From: Aneurinibacillus uraniidurans
GTDB lineage: Bacteria > Bacillota > Bacilli > Aneurinibacillales > Aneurinibacillaceae
Reading direction: 5' to 3'
NCBI RefSeq assembly: GCF_028471905.1
Contig: NZ_CP116902.1
Coordinates: 966,501-1,030,500, forward strand
Length of the DNA stretch: 64,000 nt
Below are positions 19,450 through 41,502 of the stretch, piece after piece. The position numbers and the translations under genes are program-made. The first letter of the stretch is position 1, and every line of letters begins with the position of its first letter. Under the pieces are notes generated by a model, which saw nothing but the letters and a program-made list of their open reading frames with translations, did not search any database and was not told the origin of the DNA.

Positions 19450-21150
19450 TTAATTGTCGGATTCGAAGGGAATCGTCATATAGGTGCCGGTTCGGGCATC
19501 CACATAGAAATCGCCTGGAACCGGTCCAGTGATGCGGTAGATCAGAACTGGAGACGGGGCCCGCTGCCCGAAATAATCAGGCCACATGTACTCTAATGTA
19601 AGCTTTGTGTTCTGAGAAAACGTACGGGCTACATCAGCGCGAGATGCGAGAGAAGATGCAGGCGGCAGGCTAGGAGCAGGACGTTCAGGTGATAAAGAAA
19701 AGCTGGTAATTTCGCCTGCTGTATTTACGATAACAAAGCTGGAGCGGTCACGTATCGGAATTCCGTCTTTCTGCTCAGTAAAGCGGAACTCATATTCTTC
19801 CATCCTGTTTTCTTGTACGAAAGACTGGATTTTCGTTTTGTCTGCCCAGAACGGGAGAGGCTCCTTTTCACTGGAATGAAAATAATAGACTTGCATGGAA
19901 TCAGCAGTAGTAGGCACATAAGTTTGGATAAATTGAGTCGCTTTCTCGAACGCTTCTTCTTTTGTGACAATATGATTTTCCTGGCCTGTTTTCGTTACAT
20001 CTACATGTAGAATTTGTTTAGTTGCTTTATCGATCATAACATTAGCAGCGGCATTCGTATCATCGTTCCACCACGTATAAGCTATTGCCGTATTGACATA
20101 TTGAGGATGAACGATCTGCTGCTCTTGCTCATCTACTTTCCATCCGCTTACGTCTACTCCGCATACGTTGAGGAGGACATGGGCTGCTTCTTCCTGAGAG
20201 GAAGCGTGCAGTTTTTGTTTTGTTGGCGCAATAGAAATTTTTTTCCATGGCTCAAAGCGATTTTCTGCTTCGCCTTGTACGTCACCTGTTACAAGGTCAA
20301 CTGGTTTGCCAGTGAACGCGTTTACTGCAACCGGGAGATTCATATCGTAGCGAAGCACGGGTTGAATCGTTTTCATCTGATTCTTTCCTTGCGTATAGGA
20401 AGGCTGCTGTTCCACATAGGAAAGGGACACACGTTCTGGCGTGAACAGATGCTTTTTTAACGTATCCGTTTTTAGTGCATCCTTTGGATCAGGCAACACA
20501 GCCTGTGAAAGGGATGGCGGATTGTATTCAAAGCGTACAACGTGCCCAGTAGCATCGATATCCATACGCGGTCCAACGCCGCCCGTAGACGTTGGAATTC
20601 CATTAATGAGCAGCGGGAATTCGACAGTCCGGTGTGCCCATGTCAATTTAGTCCCATTCGGGTATTGAATAGATGAGGAGCCTCGACCATTTGAGACAGG
20701 GGTTCCGAATTGGGACAGTTGTTTTGAGCCGAACCAATTAAATAGAAACTTCTGTGCTTGTTCTTTGGCGAAGGAAGCGGAAGGTTCTAAAGACGAGCTT
20801 CGATCATGGAATTGGAAAGAAAAGCTTCGTAGTTCGCCTGTCTTACTACGGATATCGATATAGGCACTCGATAAGGGTGTTGGATCCTCGCCTTCGAGCA
20901 TACGAATGGTTGTAATACCAGTCCGATCAGATGTAGAGCAGTTTTTAATATGCAGCTTTTTTAAATTTGGCTCCATTGTAAATAGCCGATCCAGTGTTTT
21001 CTGGACGGCAGGTGTAAGCTGACTTTTGTTTGCAGGCTGTATGGTTAAAGGCATACTTCCTGTGGCAGCCGCCTCGGCCGGAATGGCAGAGAATGTTGTC
21101 CCGAGGCCGGTAAGCAGTAGAGCTGCTGCCAGGCAGGTGTTCCGTTTCAT
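19450..21150 (-). CDS. Secreted protein with YcdB/YcdC-like repeats
   Basis: 566 residues. A clear Sec signal peptide (MKRNTCLAAALLLTGLG, cleavage near AEAAA at about 28). The mature part contains repeated PepSY/YcdB-like modules with alternating propeptide-like sheets: FAKEQAQKFLFNWFG, KEEAFEKATQFIQTYVP and VNAFTGKPVDLVTGDV, DARTGTYMTI. These modules often inhibit or chaperone secreted proteases. No catalytic motif is seen. There is no adjacent partner gene, so the target is unknown. Confidence 0.72.
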   Translation of the reverse strand: MKRNTCLAAALLLTGLGTTFSAIPAEAAATGSMPLTIQPANKSQLTPAVQKTLDRLFTMEPNLKKLHIKNCSTSDRTGITTIRMLEGEDPTPLSSAYIDIRSKTGELRSFSFQFHDRSSSLEPSASFAKEQAQKFLFNWFGSKQLSQFGTPVSNGRGSSSIQYPNGTKLTWAHRTVEFPLLINGIPTSTGGVGPRMDIDATGHVVRFEYNPPSLSQAVLPDPKDALKTDTLKKHLFTPERVSLSYVEQQPSYTQGKNQMKTIQPVLRYDMNLPVAVNAFTGKPVDLVTGDVQGEAENRFEPWKKISIAPTKQKLHASSQEEAAHVLLNVCGVDVSGWKVDEQEQQIVHPQYVNTAIAYTWWNDDTNAAANVMIDKATKQILHVDVTKTGQENHIVTKEEAFEKATQFIQTYVPTTADSMQVYYFHSSEKEPLPFWADKTKIQSFVQENRMEEYEFRFTEQKDGIPIRDRSSFVIVNTAGEITSFSLSPERPAPSLPPASSLASRADVARTFSQNTKLTLEYMWPDYFGQRAPSPVLIYRITGPVPGDFYVDARTGTYMTIPFESDN

Positions 21151-21356
21151 AACCTTTCCCCCTTGATTCTCTCTTTATAAGTTCGTTCAATTTTCCTCGA
21201 TTGTAGGATAGAGGAAGCAATATATTTCAATGATACTTCATAAAAGAAAGATTGCAAGAGAAGCTCTCTCATTTTTCTGCAAAAATAAGTGAAGCGAAGG
21301 TATTCGCCTTTTCTCATCGTATTGTGCAGATGTCTCTCTCCTTATTACATGAACAG

Positions 21357-21366
21357 GCATACGATA
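21357..21366 (+). promoter_or_regulatory. Candidate sigma-K -10 box for the Arg-rich gene
   Basis: GCATACGATA fits the sigma-K -10 consensus gCATAnnnTA. No good -35 AC is seen at the expected 16-17 bases, so this is tentative. It lies 28 bases before the ATG. Confidence 0.4.
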
Positions 21367-21393
21367 AGGAAGAAGGAGAGAGGGGGGAAGCAT

Positions 21394-21522
21394 ATGGATC
21401 CTCGTCGACGTACACGAGTCCGACGTACACGAGTTGTGGTTTTACATCCAGGTCAATCTGTTCGATTTTTGTGTAACGGACGCCGTATTATCGTCCGTTG
21501 CGGTCGCCGCCGTTTATTCTAA
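21394..21522 (+). CDS. 42-residue arginine-rich basic protein, possibly spore-associated
   Basis: Starts at ATG 21394 behind a strong GAGAGGGGGG ribosome site and ends before a perfect terminator, so it is a real gene. Fourteen of 42 residues are arginine, with two cysteines and a hydrophobic middle (VVVLHPGQSVRFLC). A 15-bp tandem repeat (21406-21420 and 21421-21435) encodes RRTRV twice. The composition recalls small basic coat or DNA-binding proteins of spores; a sigma-K-like -10 supports this. No family is recognised. Confidence 0.68.
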   Translation: MDPRRRTRVRRTRVVVLHPGQSVRFLCNGRRIIVRCGRRRLF

Positions 21523-21530
21523 TGACGGAG

Positions 21531-21561
21531 AAAGCGCCTGAGTTGTTGCAGGCGCTTTTTT
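21531..21561 (+). terminator. Terminator after the Arg-rich gene
   Basis: AAAGCGCCTG (21531-21540) pairs perfectly with CAGGCGCTTT (21549-21558), followed by T run. Confidence 0.85.
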
Positions 21562-21677
21562 CAGTTAAGTGGGTTAAGGTTGCTTGTTCCTCTCTCTTAA
21601 AGCAGGATATACCAGAATGAGAGCAGAAAAGAATGAGCAGGCGATGGTAAAAAGAAAATGGTAAGGGGATGAACCAA

Positions 21678-22661
21678 GTGTCAAAACAACGATCCGTGCA
21701 GCTAAAGGAGCAACTCGTATTACCTGTTATAATGGCCCCGATGTTTTTGGTTTCAAGTCCGGAAATGATTATTGCGGGGTGTAAGGCGGGAATTATTAGC
21801 TCATTTCCGCTCCTGAATGCCCGTACGACAGATAGTTTGGAACAATGGATGGAACAAATTACACAAGGGTTAGCGCAGGTGGAGGATGAGAATACAGCAC
21901 AGCAGGTGGCTCCCTGGGCGGTAAATCTTATCGTACATCGGACGAATCAGCGGTATGAAGCCGATCTGGAATTAATTAAGAAGTACAAGCCGCCGATTGT
22001 GATTACATCGTTAGGAAATCCTCAATCCGTTGTAGATGTCGTACATGAATATGGAGGGCTGGTTTTCTCCGATGTGATCAATCTGACTCATGCCAAAAAA
22101 GCGGCTACGACAGGAATTGATGGATTAATTCTCGTGTGCAACGGAGCTGGTGGACATGCGGGAACACTGAATCCAGTTGCTTTTCTTGGAGCGGTCAAAG
22201 AATTCTGGGACGGAATAACGATTGTAGCCGGTTGTATATCCCGTGGACAGGATATTTTGGCGATGGAAGTACTTGGTGCGGATATGGTATATATGGGAAC
22301 GCGCTTTATTGCTACGTCTGAAAGCTTTGCTAGTGAAGCGTATCAGCACATGCTGCTGGAATCTGGTGCGGAAGATTTGATTTATACGGATGCATTTAGT
22401 GGCGTACACGCTAATTATCTCGTGCCAAGCATTCGCAATGCAGGACTTGACCCGAATCATTTACAAAAGAAAGAATCGATGGATTTCTCTTTCTCACAAG
22501 CAGCTGAAACGGAAGCGAAGGCGTGGAAACATATTTGGTCCGCCGGACAAGGAGTAGGCGCGATCAAGCAGATCGCGCCGATTGCTGATGTTGTGGCCGA
22601 GCTGCGAAAAGAATATGAGCAAGCACGGAATTCTCTCATGCCTGCCCCTGACCGACTATAA
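21678..22661 (+). CDS. Nitronate monooxygenase (2-nitropropane dioxygenase family)
   Basis: 327 residues from GTG 21678, which is 9 bases after AAGGGG; an ATG at 21669 overlaps that ribosome site but cannot be excluded. TIM-barrel FMN enzyme: [13 protein letters not shown] at the N-terminus, [15 protein letters not shown] in the phosphate-binding region, [12 protein letters not shown] and [14 protein letters not shown]. It would oxidise alkyl nitronates or propionate-3-nitronate. Its last 6 bases overlap the 3' end of the convergent chemoreceptor gene, and no terminator separates them. Confidence 0.88.
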
Positions 22662-28490: not shown

Positions 28491-29739
28491 ATGATTTGCA
28501 CAGCTCCGTGTATATTGGAAACGTGGCGCAAAGTTCCGTGACATGGTTACGAACGTTATGTTTAATCGTGTCATTACATGGATTCTTAAGAGCTTGCTCC
28601 ATTAAACTAGCAATTTCCTTCATAGCTTGCTTGTTCATTCCTCGTGTTGTTACAGCTGGTGTACCAACACGTATTCCGCTTGTTACGGATGGGCTTAGTG
28701 TATCAAACGGTACTGAATTTTTATTAGTGGAAATCCACACCTCATCTAATATCTTTTCTGCCTCTTCACCTGTGAGGTGGTAGTTTCGTAAATCAATAAG
28801 AATGAGATGATTATCAGTACCTCCAGATACCAAATTAAAATCTCTTCCTGTTAATTCTTCAGCTAATGTTTGAGCATTAACGATGATATTTTTTGCATAT
28901 TCCTTAAAGCTTGGCTGTGATGCTTCGCCAAGTGCAACAGCTTTACCAGCAATGACGTGCATTAAAGGACCACCTTGCATCCCAGGGAAAATAGATTTAT
29001 CAATCGCTTTCGCGTGTTCTTTTTTACAGAGAATCATTCCCCCGCGAGGCCCGCGCAATGTTTTATGTGTTGTGGTTGTTACAAAATCTGCGAAGGGAAC
29101 AGGACTTGGGTGAAGTCCTGCCGCAACAAGCCCAGCAATATGAGCCATATCTACTAGTAAAAGTGCTCCGGATTCTTTTGCGATTGAACCAAATATTTCA
29201 AAGTCAATAATCCGAGAATATGAGCTTGCTCCGGCAACAATTAACTTTGGTCGATGTTTTAGCGCTAAATGTCGTACTTGATCATAGTCGATTCGCATCG
29301 TTTCTGGATGTAGGCCATATTCGATGAAGGTAAATTGCTTACCAGAAAAGTTTACAGGGCTGCCATGTGTAAGGTGGCCGCCATGGGACAAATTCATTCC
29401 TAACACCGTATCTCCTTGTTGTAAACATGCGAAGTAAACGGCCATATTTGCCTGTGATCCGGAATGTGGCTGGACGTTTGCATATTCGGCACCAAACAAA
29501 TCTTTTGCTCTTTCCTGTGCTATATTCTCGATCACGTCTACAAATTCGCATCCCCCATAATAACGCTTGGCTGGATACCCTTCTGCATACTTATTCGTTA
29601 AAATACTTCCTACAGCTTCTAATACAGCTTTACTAACAAAGTTTTCTGAGGCAATTAATTCAATACGAGATTGCTGGCGTTCAAATTCTTTTTGGATGAT
29701 TTCTGAAACCTGTACATCACATGAAGTAAGTGTATTCAT
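28489..29739 (-). CDS. glyA: Serine hydroxymethyltransferase (GlyA paralogue)
   Basis: 416 residues, full length. PLP lysine in [27 protein letters not shown] and [14 protein letters not shown] are family signatures. It interconverts serine and glycine with tetrahydrofolate. It is not in the usual housekeeping glyA context; it is divergent from a MocR regulator across 95 bp, and is more A/T-rich than the core genes. Hence a regulated second copy is likely, although this window cannot show whether another copy exists. Confidence 0.9.
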
Positions 29740-32150: not shown

Positions 32151-32233
32151 ATGGTGATTTCATTTCCTAATCATTTTCTACATTTCATAAAATAAGCGAA
32201 TTCGTTAAAGTAAAGTGAATAGGAGTGATGAAC

Positions 32234-34768: not shown

Positions 34769-35269
34769 TTATAAGATATTCAGTTTTGCAATAAGAGCAG
34801 CCAGGATTTGTGCGAGCAGTTGGATGTTAACTGAGATATCGGTATCGATTGTATGGACAGTTACCCCTTTGGAATTTTCAACGAGTGTTCTGTGGTGGCT
34901 TGCTTGCTTCATGAATGATTTCTGGAACAGCTCTTGCGAGATTTCGTTCGCTACATTACCATCTGCGATTGATACACTAAGGACAGCTGCGATCGCGAAT
35001 TGGAGAGAGGCTTGCAGGTTGAGAGCGGCTTTTGTGTCGCGAGTTGTTACTTTAACATCGCAGGAATTGCGGACGACAATCACTTCATCAGATGTTTGAA
35101 TCGTATCGGATTCCTGAACAGCCGCCTGCTCTACTTCTGCTCTTTCACGCTCAAGCGGGTGGAAGCAGTCGCGAAGTGCATTGAATCTACAATCACGTAC
35201 TACCTCTACAGAACGAATAGCGCGACGATGGCGACGACGGCGGCAAACCGCTTTACGTCTTCTTTTCAT
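34769..35269 (-). CDS. cotX: Spore coat protein CotX/CotV family
   Basis: 166 residues. A highly basic N-terminus (KRRRKAVCRRRRHRRAIR) is followed by two CotX/V repeats: VVRNSCDVKVTTRDTKAALNLQASLQFAIA and LVENSKGVTVHTIDTDISVNIQLLAQILAALI. CotX is a structural protein of the insoluble outer coat or crust. A candidate sigma-K promoter lies 32-60 bases upstream, consistent with late mother-cell expression. Confidence 0.88.
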   Translation of the reverse strand: MKRRRKAVCRRRRHRRAIRSVEVVRDCRFNALRDCFHPLERERAEVEQAAVQESDTIQTSDEVIVVRNSCDVKVTTRDTKAALNLQASLQFAIAAVLSVSIADGNVANEISQELFQKSFMKQASHHRTLVENSKGVTVHTIDTDISVNIQLLAQILAALIAKLNIL

Positions 35270-35300: not shown

Positions 35301-35328
35301 TATCCTATGGGAGTTTTATAGAGTTGGT
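35301..35328 (-). promoter_or_regulatory. Candidate sigma-K promoter of cotX
   Basis: On the minus strand ACC, 16 bases, then CATAGGATA fits sigma-K mACm-N16-17-gCATAnnnTA. It lies in the right place for this coat gene. Confidence 0.6.
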
Positions 35329-35391
35329 ATAGACAAACAGACTGAGGAAAACGCACAAAAATTACTAGAGTTTACGAAGCAGGGTAATGAG

Positions 35392-40242: not shown

Positions 40243-40425
40243 AAGCAGTATTTGTCTGTCGTTTGTACGATTTCTGTGAATTCCTTGCCCCCATACATCG
40301 AAAAACTGGTATGATAAATACGCAACGAATGTGATTGTTGATATCCATTCGCCCAATCGTTACATACGATGAAGAAAATAGGCACAGGCGTAACCTTGTC
40401 CTAGACGTTTAAGGAGGCAATACCC

Positions 40426-41502
40426 TTGGCAACGAAACAAAGAGTAGGAATCATCTACGGAGGCAAGTCAAGCGAGCATGAGGTGTCGATTCATACGGCG
40501 CATTCGATCATTCAAGCGGTCGATAAGGAACGATATGAGGTGTTGCCGATCTATGTAGATGTGACGGGGAAATGGGTGCAGGGACCATGGGTGACGGATG
40601 TGCCGGAGAAGGCAGAAGAATTGCGCTATACACTTGATCAGCATCAAGCGCCAGATGTATTTACCCTGGCAGAACAGGTAGACGTAATTTTTCCGGTTAT
40701 TCACGGCCCGAACGGAGAAGATGGTACGCTACAAGGGATGCTTGAGCTGCTTGATGTACCATATGTTGGTTCTGGTGTTCTCGGTTCTTCCCTTGGTATG
40801 GATAAAGTAATGATGAAAGAAGTATTTGCGAGTGCGGGTCTACCGCAGGGCGCATACCGTAGTTTTCTGCGCAGTGAGCTTCATGCAGATATGGACGGTA
40901 TTTGCGACCGTATCGTAGAAGAACTTGGTCTGCCGTGCTTTGTGAAGCCAGCCAATATGGGATCAAGTGTCGGCATTAGCAAGGCAAAGGACCGGGATGG
41001 CTTGATTGAGGCATTGAAATTTGCCGCACGTTTTGACCGGAAAGTGATTGTCGAGGAATTCATCGCTGGCCGCGAATTGGAAATTGCCGTGCTTGGCAAC
41101 GACAATCCAGCAGCTTCTGTTGTCGGGGAGATTATTTTCGGCAATGAATTTTATGATTATGAAGCGAAATACAAAAGTAACAATACCCGCCTTGATATTC
41201 CAGCACTTGTGCCGGATTCAGTGGTGACACGCATGAAGGAGCTGTCTGTGAAGGCGTTTCTTGCTCTTGATTGTAGCGGGTTATCCCGTGTTGATTTCTT
41301 CTGGAATGAAGAACGCGATATGCTTTATATTAATGAAATTAATACGCTGCCAGGCTTTACGCCATTCAGTATGTATCCGATGATGTGGAAGGCGGCAGGC
41401 GTAGAATATGCTGAACTGATTGATCGTCTGATCGGGTTTGCGATTGAGCGTTATACCGAGAAGAAAGAAAATGAACTGGTAGCTGAGAAGTTTATGGAAT
41501 AA
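40426..41502 (+). CDS. ddl: D-alanine--D-alanine ligase
   Basis: 358 residues from TTG 40426 with AAGGAGG ahead. ATP-grasp signatures: VIFPVIHGPNGEDGTLQGML, PCFVKPANMGSSVGI, IVEEFIAGRELEIAVLG and YINEINTLPGFTPFSMYPMMW. It forms D-Ala-D-Ala for peptidoglycan. In many Bacillales murF follows directly; here murF is 2.3 kb away and reversed. Confidence 0.97.
   Translation: MATKQRVGIIYGGKSSEHEVSIHTAHSIIQAVDKERYEVLPIYVDVTGKWVQGPWVTDVPEKAEELRYTLDQHQAPDVFTLAEQVDVIFPVIHGPNGEDGTLQGMLELLDVPYVGSGVLGSSLGMDKVMMKEVFASAGLPQGAYRSFLRSELHADMDGICDRIVEELGLPCFVKPANMGSSVGISKAKDRDGLIEALKFAARFDRKVIVEEFIAGRELEIAVLGNDNPAASVVGEIIFGNEFYDYEAKYKSNNTRLDIPALVPDSVVTRMKELSVKAFLALDCSGLSRVDFFWNEERDMLYINEINTLPGFTPFSMYPMMWKAAGVEYAELIDRLIGFAIERYTEKKENELVAEKFME

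Follow-up and report, generated by a model that had tools for sequence, protein, structure and literature searches.

A 42-residue arginine-rich peptide gene with a sigma-K-like promoter in Aneurinibacillus uraniidurans, a candidate for a spore coat component

The stretch of Aneurinibacillus uraniidurans DNA that we analysed, called the window here (64,000 nucleotides; NZ_CP116902.1, positions 966,501 to 1,030,500), contains an open reading frame of only 42 codons. Its product, MDPRRRTRVRRTRVVVLHPGQSVRFLCNGRRIIVRCGRRRLF, holds 14 Arg (33%), two Cys, one Ser and no Lys, and carries a net charge of +13. The question that this locus raises is whether so short and so biased a frame is a gene at all and, if it is, what its product might do. 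A preliminary description, made from the letters alone, had suggested a small nucleic-acid-binding or coat peptide of the spore that grew by duplication.

A short gene and its signals

The elements of the locus, all on the plus strand, are the following.

21331 to 21341: TGTCTCTCTCC, resembling a -35 and a degenerate version of the family's TTGTCC..ACC; 16 nt separate its last C from the -10
21358 to 21366: sigma-K-type -10 CATACGATA, an exact CATANNNTA that begins 36 nt 5' of the ATG
21380 to 21387: ribosome-binding site GAGGGGGG, read from the sequence, 6 nt 5' of the ATG
21394 to 21522: coding sequence of the 42-aa arginine-rich peptide, with a TAA stop and then an in-frame TGA
21406 to 21434: tandem copies (RRTRV twice), two identical 14-nt copies with a period of 15
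21457 to 21498: predicted beta-hairpin, residues 22-35, in which an NG turn joins strands 22-27 and 30-35 (AlphaFold2)
21531 to 21561: intrinsic terminator, a stem-loop and U-tract (RNA fold)

The preliminary description had reported the same arginine content, a strong ribosome site, a perfect terminator and a sigma-K-like -10, and all four are borne out. The nearest relative, in genome G004, reads GAGGAGGT at the position equivalent to the ribosome-binding site. The terminator folds at -24.5 kcal/mol (z = -6.0 against 200 shuffles); it is absent from the list of a simple terminator scan. A longer in-frame GTG start at 21289 (77 aa) was rejected because that frame would enclose both the -10 and the ribosome-binding site. 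The gene lies between a divergent DUF4901 gene (19450-21150, minus strand) and a nitronate monooxygenase-like gene (21669-22661, plus strand), and the same two neighbours are present in G004. The region 21240-21390 is almost identical in G004 (L002) and is more conserved than the coding part, which hints at a further regulatory constraint, perhaps one in common with the divergent gene.

A family of small basic peptides

We compared ten proteins (the peptide itself, five core relatives and four longer ones) with Pfam and NCBIfam, and none scored over the cut-off; as far as these two collections go, the statement that no known family fits the peptide stands. The sole match listed is a weak overlap of residues 10-29 with DUF5999 (PF19462; E = 0.016), which differs in that the 42-aa peptide scores 15.6 bits against a gathering cut-off of 27.5. 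A profile search of PDB sequences returned just titin and opioid-binding cell adhesion molecule chains (E 0.033 to 0.59). No match was found by tblastn with the 42-aa peptide against plasmids and phages or with a 28-aa relative against plasmids, searches in which the low-complexity filter could mask some matches, and a first pattern scan of genome contigs gave 42 pattern matches of which 0 were confirmed. A literature search, with most subscription papers outside its coverage, found no paper on the peptide family. We rate the family as uncatalogued: probably a small basic late-sporulation surface protein, of very small size.

Profile searches gave a different result. The peptide itself as query matched its own genome and G003, G004 and G005 of the genus, as well as G007 of another genus of the same family. 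A wider profile added two short forms in G002, so that five of the seven genus genomes, our own included, have a member; G001 gave weak matches that were not accepted, and this search yielded no accepted match in G001, G006 or G008-G014. The preliminary description had made its case depend on conservation in close relatives, and this is what we found in those five genomes, with two of the seven lacking an accepted relative. Across the class, a first profile, at E <= 0.01, matched 18 of 398 genomes, false matches among them, and the core profile matched 29 of 398 at E <= 0.005. After the matches were read, 26 of the 398 Bacilli genomes were retained, with 29 genes; the three dropped were G030 and G208, which have longer proteins, and G226, which is LysM-like by eye. 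A search of the phylum at E <= 0.001 matched 4 of 398 genomes, namely our own plus three that belong to a single further family outside the class. These counts leave out weak matches (L032-L036 and L038-L040, E 0.09 to 0.4) and a second match in G047. Judged by eye to be non-members were L005-L008, L020, L022, L023, L043 (from a Deferribacteraceae MAG) and L068, which resembles a LysM-type protein. Six longer proteins (L017, L018, L024, L025, L069 and L070) were set apart as merely possible relatives.

The members have a shared anatomy, which the 42-aa peptide fits: a basic arm, the motif [IV]xLxxGQ, a hydrophobic stretch that usually ends in Cys, and a second basic arm. The L, G, Q and C are invariant across the 15 rows of alignment A4; among the 29 core peptides, 7 have no Cys, and net charges range from +9 to +18. 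Most short forms (27-36 aa, the smallest being 27 aa) end after the second basic arm. Our own branch (G000, G003, G004, G005, G007) and three genomes of genus g82 (G153, G163 and G182, the last with the sequence of Tumebacillus avium) have a further stretch ending in IVRC or VVRC. Pooled comparisons gave pN/pS = 0.16, from 27 non-synonymous changes over 469 sites and 60 synonymous changes over 170 sites, uncorrected for multiple hits; the pool comprises 7 of 12 pairs, two of them copies within one genome and two represented by the gap-free aligned part only. One left-out pair, G074/G121, runs the opposite way (pS 0.02, pN 0.05). The pooled ratio supports purifying selection on the family.

Several members stand out individually. 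The homologue in G007 (A. tyrosinisolvens; L012/L041) has ATA in place of its relatives' ATG, with ribosome-binding site and reading frame intact; the ATA may serve as an unusual start, reflect a sequencing error or mark a gene in decay. Two genomes hold two short-form copies each, about 2.6 kb apart in G293 (L016/L027) and about 0.27 kb apart in G204 (L021/L026), and every copy has its own CATANNNTA. The relative L019 of G047 has 26 Arg among its 54 aa, and its tail is first rich in RE repeats and then poly-Arg. Among the longer proteins, L018, L070, L017, L024 and L025 (81-111 aa) have several strand units of the LxxGxxVxVxC kind, and some are rich in Cys and His; they are perhaps elaborated relatives. 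L018, L017, L024 and L025 gave no Pfam or NCBIfam match.

The internal tandem duplication noted earlier is real, with exact 14-nt copies at 21406-21419 and 21421-21434 (0 expected in shuffles). Growth by duplication does not account for the family, however, because the exact duplication is seen in our own genome only: G004, the closest relative found, has a single copy and one codon fewer there, and the duplicated segment is missing from G003, G005 and G007.

An AlphaFold2 model built from three sequences has a mean pLDDT of 75.2, with ten-residue blocks of residues 11-40 at 81-87, and a pTM of 0.38. The modelled strands, 22-27 and 30-35, correspond to the second half of the shared part plus the extension of our own branch, and residues 22-35 are missing from shorter relatives. 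Because the model has no strand N-terminal of GQ, it gives no support for a hairpin in the short forms; the strand character of the family-shared part is read from the sequence pattern and not from the model.

A promoter type in common with cotX

CATANNNTA is the sigma-K -10 consensus. Since the relatives had been found from the protein alone, with upstream regions examined afterwards, we could ask how often this element precedes them. An exact CATANNNTA lies 28-45 nt 5' of the start in 16 of the 29 genes, whereas dinucleotide shuffles (300 rounds) gave a mean of 0.18 and a maximum of 3. Within the same span, CATANNATA occurs in 14 of 29 (shuffle mean 0.07, maximum 2) and CATA in 24 of 29 (shuffle mean 2.5, maximum 8), leaving five genes without it. 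Among 47 control open reading frames of the window, CATA was found in 6 and CATANNNTA in just one, which is cotX. The 29 genes are related and so are not independent tests. Three phylum genes found later have CATA 41, 42 and 39 nt 5' of the start, with two exact CATANNNTA by eye. Position and conservation are what make the shorter element meaningful, because CATANNATA occurs in the window at chance frequency (8 occurrences against 7.9 expected).

The wider motif of the family is TTGTCC..ACC-N16-CATANNATA, with TTGTCC at -27 to -22 and ACC at -19 to -17, followed by 16 nt. It comes from 27 rows aligned by hand on CATA (without G074, G043, G088, G121, G336, G030 and G103), with the G077 row positioned by TATATAATA. 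The conservation of the -10 in the profile is therefore by construction, whereas the shuffle count is unanchored. The TTGTCC box could be a SpoIIID site, a lead suggested by the SpoIIID consensus. The gap of 16 nt between ACC and CATA equals the spacing of the SigK-dependent bclA and bclB promoters, of which bclA reads CAC-N16-CATATGTTA, according to the accessible text of PMC4750369; a gap length of 14-16 nt is given for sigma-K promoters in the accessible text of PMC517825. Our own -35 reads TCC-N16, weaker than the family consensus ACC-N16-CATA.

We scanned both strands of the window with a promoter profile of 23 rows, which additionally left out G000, G004, G203 and G146 and retained other genomes of our own genus. 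The two features that bear on the best match are both on the minus strand.

35301 to 35336: cotX promoter TTGTCTATACC-N16-CATAGGATA, built like those of the family; the profile's best match in the window (20.9) and an exact match of the strict pattern
34769 to 35269: cotX-like gene with a basic N-terminus (PF07552 Coat_X, E = 9.6e-35)

The site upstream of a D-Ala-D-Ala ligase gene scored 18.7, and our own promoter ranked fifth at 14.0, behind two sites inside coding regions, at 28621 (plus strand, 15.8) and 55010 (minus strand, 15.2). The peaks of five simulated windows reached 12.7-14.6. Taken alone, our own promoter thus appears borderline by the profile, and its assignment therefore rests on the perfect, positioned -10. 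Leave-one-out scores of the members run from -6.3 to 34.5, the low ones being G003 (-6.3), G217 (1.1) and G212 (1.9).

The basic N-terminus of CotX, to which the preliminary description had drawn attention, is indeed present, and the link to this gene extends to the promoter. Of the CotX/CotV domain coat proteins (PF07552), the one in this window has its promoter architecture in common with the 42-aa gene; it differs in that the peptide has no Coat_X domain match and is a quarter of the length of CotX (42 against 166 aa). With one mismatch allowed, the strict pattern gave 10 sites in 15 genomes, against 5 for a reversed control. Three of them belong to our own cotX, to a Coat_X gene in G007 and to a G004 gene judged by eye to be cotX-like. 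Others precede a YmaF gene (G006), a protein with a sub-threshold DUF1036 match and two near-identical 95-aa proteins (G007), and L074 and L077 have no clear gene. Behind another such site lies L079 (G004), a peptide of 67 aa that is rich in Arg and Cys; its N-terminal half is acidic, and it has no Pfam match.

Two more places in the window deserve mention. The profile's second-best site, 40336-40371, lies upstream of the D-Ala-D-Ala ligase gene (40426-41502), for which late-sporulation expression is possible, judging by this site. At 32186-32194, CATAAAATA directly precedes the gene for an EF-G-binding protein (PF07299, PF16571); the profile score of this site is low (rank 26).

We conclude that the frame at 21394-21522 is a real gene. 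The gene, its family, the purifying selection on it and the shared promoter type are computationally supported, and the sequences upstream support a family promoter that is probably of sigma-K type and common to cotX.

A possible role in the spore coat

A small spore peptide, as the preliminary description had proposed, is probable given the sigma-K-like -10 and the promoter link to CotX. From the promoters we infer expression under sigma-K and a probable location in the coat or at the spore surface. Our preferred explanation, to which we give a probability of roughly 0.45, is that the mother cell makes a coat peptide late in sporulation and that its Arg arms bind polyanions at the surface. 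The gene, with its own promoter and terminator, would be switched on in the late mother-cell (sigma-K) programme and the peptide synthesised while the outer spore layers are assembled. The product would be a minimal cationic peptide in which a short hydrophobic core lies between two Arg-rich arms; in our own branch the core gains the stretch ending in IVRC, and the two together are predicted to form the beta-hairpin. The core would associate with itself or with other coat proteins, the Arg arms would attach to polyanions in the coat or at the spore surface, and Cys-bearing forms would be locked in through disulfides. Polyanion binding and cross-linking by the peptide are hypotheses, and cross-linking cannot be general because 7 of the 29 core peptides have no Cys.

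The obvious comparison is with the CotG-like coat proteins of Bacillus, which resemble the peptide as positively charged coat components (accessible text of PMC9765600). They differ in composition: CotG has Ser/Lys-rich repeats phosphorylated by CotH (accessible text of PMC7821199), whereas the peptide has Arg, a single Ser and no Lys. Our own genome (G000) has 0 CotH matches, so that a CotH-phosphorylated partner is not evident. CotH genes occur in 2 of 15 genomes of the order, G002 and G007, both of which hold a member of the peptide family. The accessible text of PMC9765600 further describes the CotG repeats as spacers, with differently charged replacements not affecting spores as deletion did; since positive repeats could be replaced in this way, the analogy of charge is weakened. 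The CotG/CotB/CotH system is thus no direct parallel to the 42-aa peptide. This replacement result, and the fact that no hairpin is predicted for the part present in the short relatives, lower our confidence in the coat-peptide explanation and in its wider extension below, and make nucleic-acid binding slightly more likely.

Could the frame still be a chance one? Arginine content alone is no evidence of a gene, because 4 of 716 open frames of the window (42 or more residues), the 42-aa gene included, hold a 42-residue stretch with at least 14 Arg; a chance Arg-rich frame next to a chance CATANNNTA would also be in keeping with the window frequency of CATANNATA. Homologues, purifying selection and positioned promoters make this explanation extremely improbable. 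The peptide could also bind nucleic acids, for instance RNA or DNA freed at lysis, either in the coat or late in the mother cell, which would suit its 14 Arg in 42 residues and net charge of +13. There is, however, no Pfam or NCBIfam match over the cut-off to bear this out, a mother-cell promoter would speak against protection of forespore DNA, and the promoter type seems to favour a coat peptide; we consider nucleic-acid binding unlikely.

We give still less weight to two further explanations. Beta-hairpin antimicrobial peptides have a secretion leader and cross-strand disulfides, and the size, charge, hairpin model and two Cys of the peptide are akin to those of the animal forms, so that one can imagine a cationic peptide which the mother cell makes as it dies and which is set free when the cell lyses. 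Against this stand the purifying selection (pN/pS 0.16), the Cys-less forms, the promoter type in common with cotX and the peptide's lack, by eye, of a hydrophobic leader. Nor was a common immunity or export gene seen in the 1.5 kb that flank the family genes to either side, because neighbours there are common only inside genera; the one exception is a downstream product that G176 and G336, which belong to different families, have in common (44% identity). Such an antimicrobial seems very unlikely. Only a little less so is a coat peptide that organises silica or another mineral, with the Arg arms serving as nucleation or binding sites for silica at the spore surface like the cationic tail of B. 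cereus CotB1. According to the accessible text of PMC11818168, spore silicification needs the zwitterionic C-terminus of CotB1, Arg-rich peptides bind or form silica, and Salp1 is Arg-rich with two Cys; the G047 relative ends in a zwitterionic RE-rich part and then a poly-Arg tail. Many polyanions are bound by Arg-rich tails, however, so that the likeness is a chemical one only. CotB1, likened here by description and not by sequence, is a spore coat protein with an Arg-rich cationic segment, but that segment is the tail of a 171-aa protein (accessible text of PMC11818168), whereas the 42-aa peptide stands alone.

Returning to the coat peptide, we can ask what the family would mean more widely. 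Knowledge of coat biology largely rests on Bacillus, and elsewhere very short, low-complexity surface components can go unnamed: tblastn of large collections came back empty and profile searches recovered the family. A short protein core and a positioned promoter together serve to recognise it, in 29 listed genes down to 27 aa. It is a tentative and somewhat doubtful extension that, in many spore formers other than the model species, these cationic peptides of 27-54 aa are a routine spore-surface component, represented also in one family outside Bacilli, and act as a generic polyanion cross-linker that replaces CotG-like proteins; the 81-111 aa proteins, with their several similar strand units, would then be elaborated forms. 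If the coat role is true, the peptide would offer a very small unit for studying how the spore surface is constructed.
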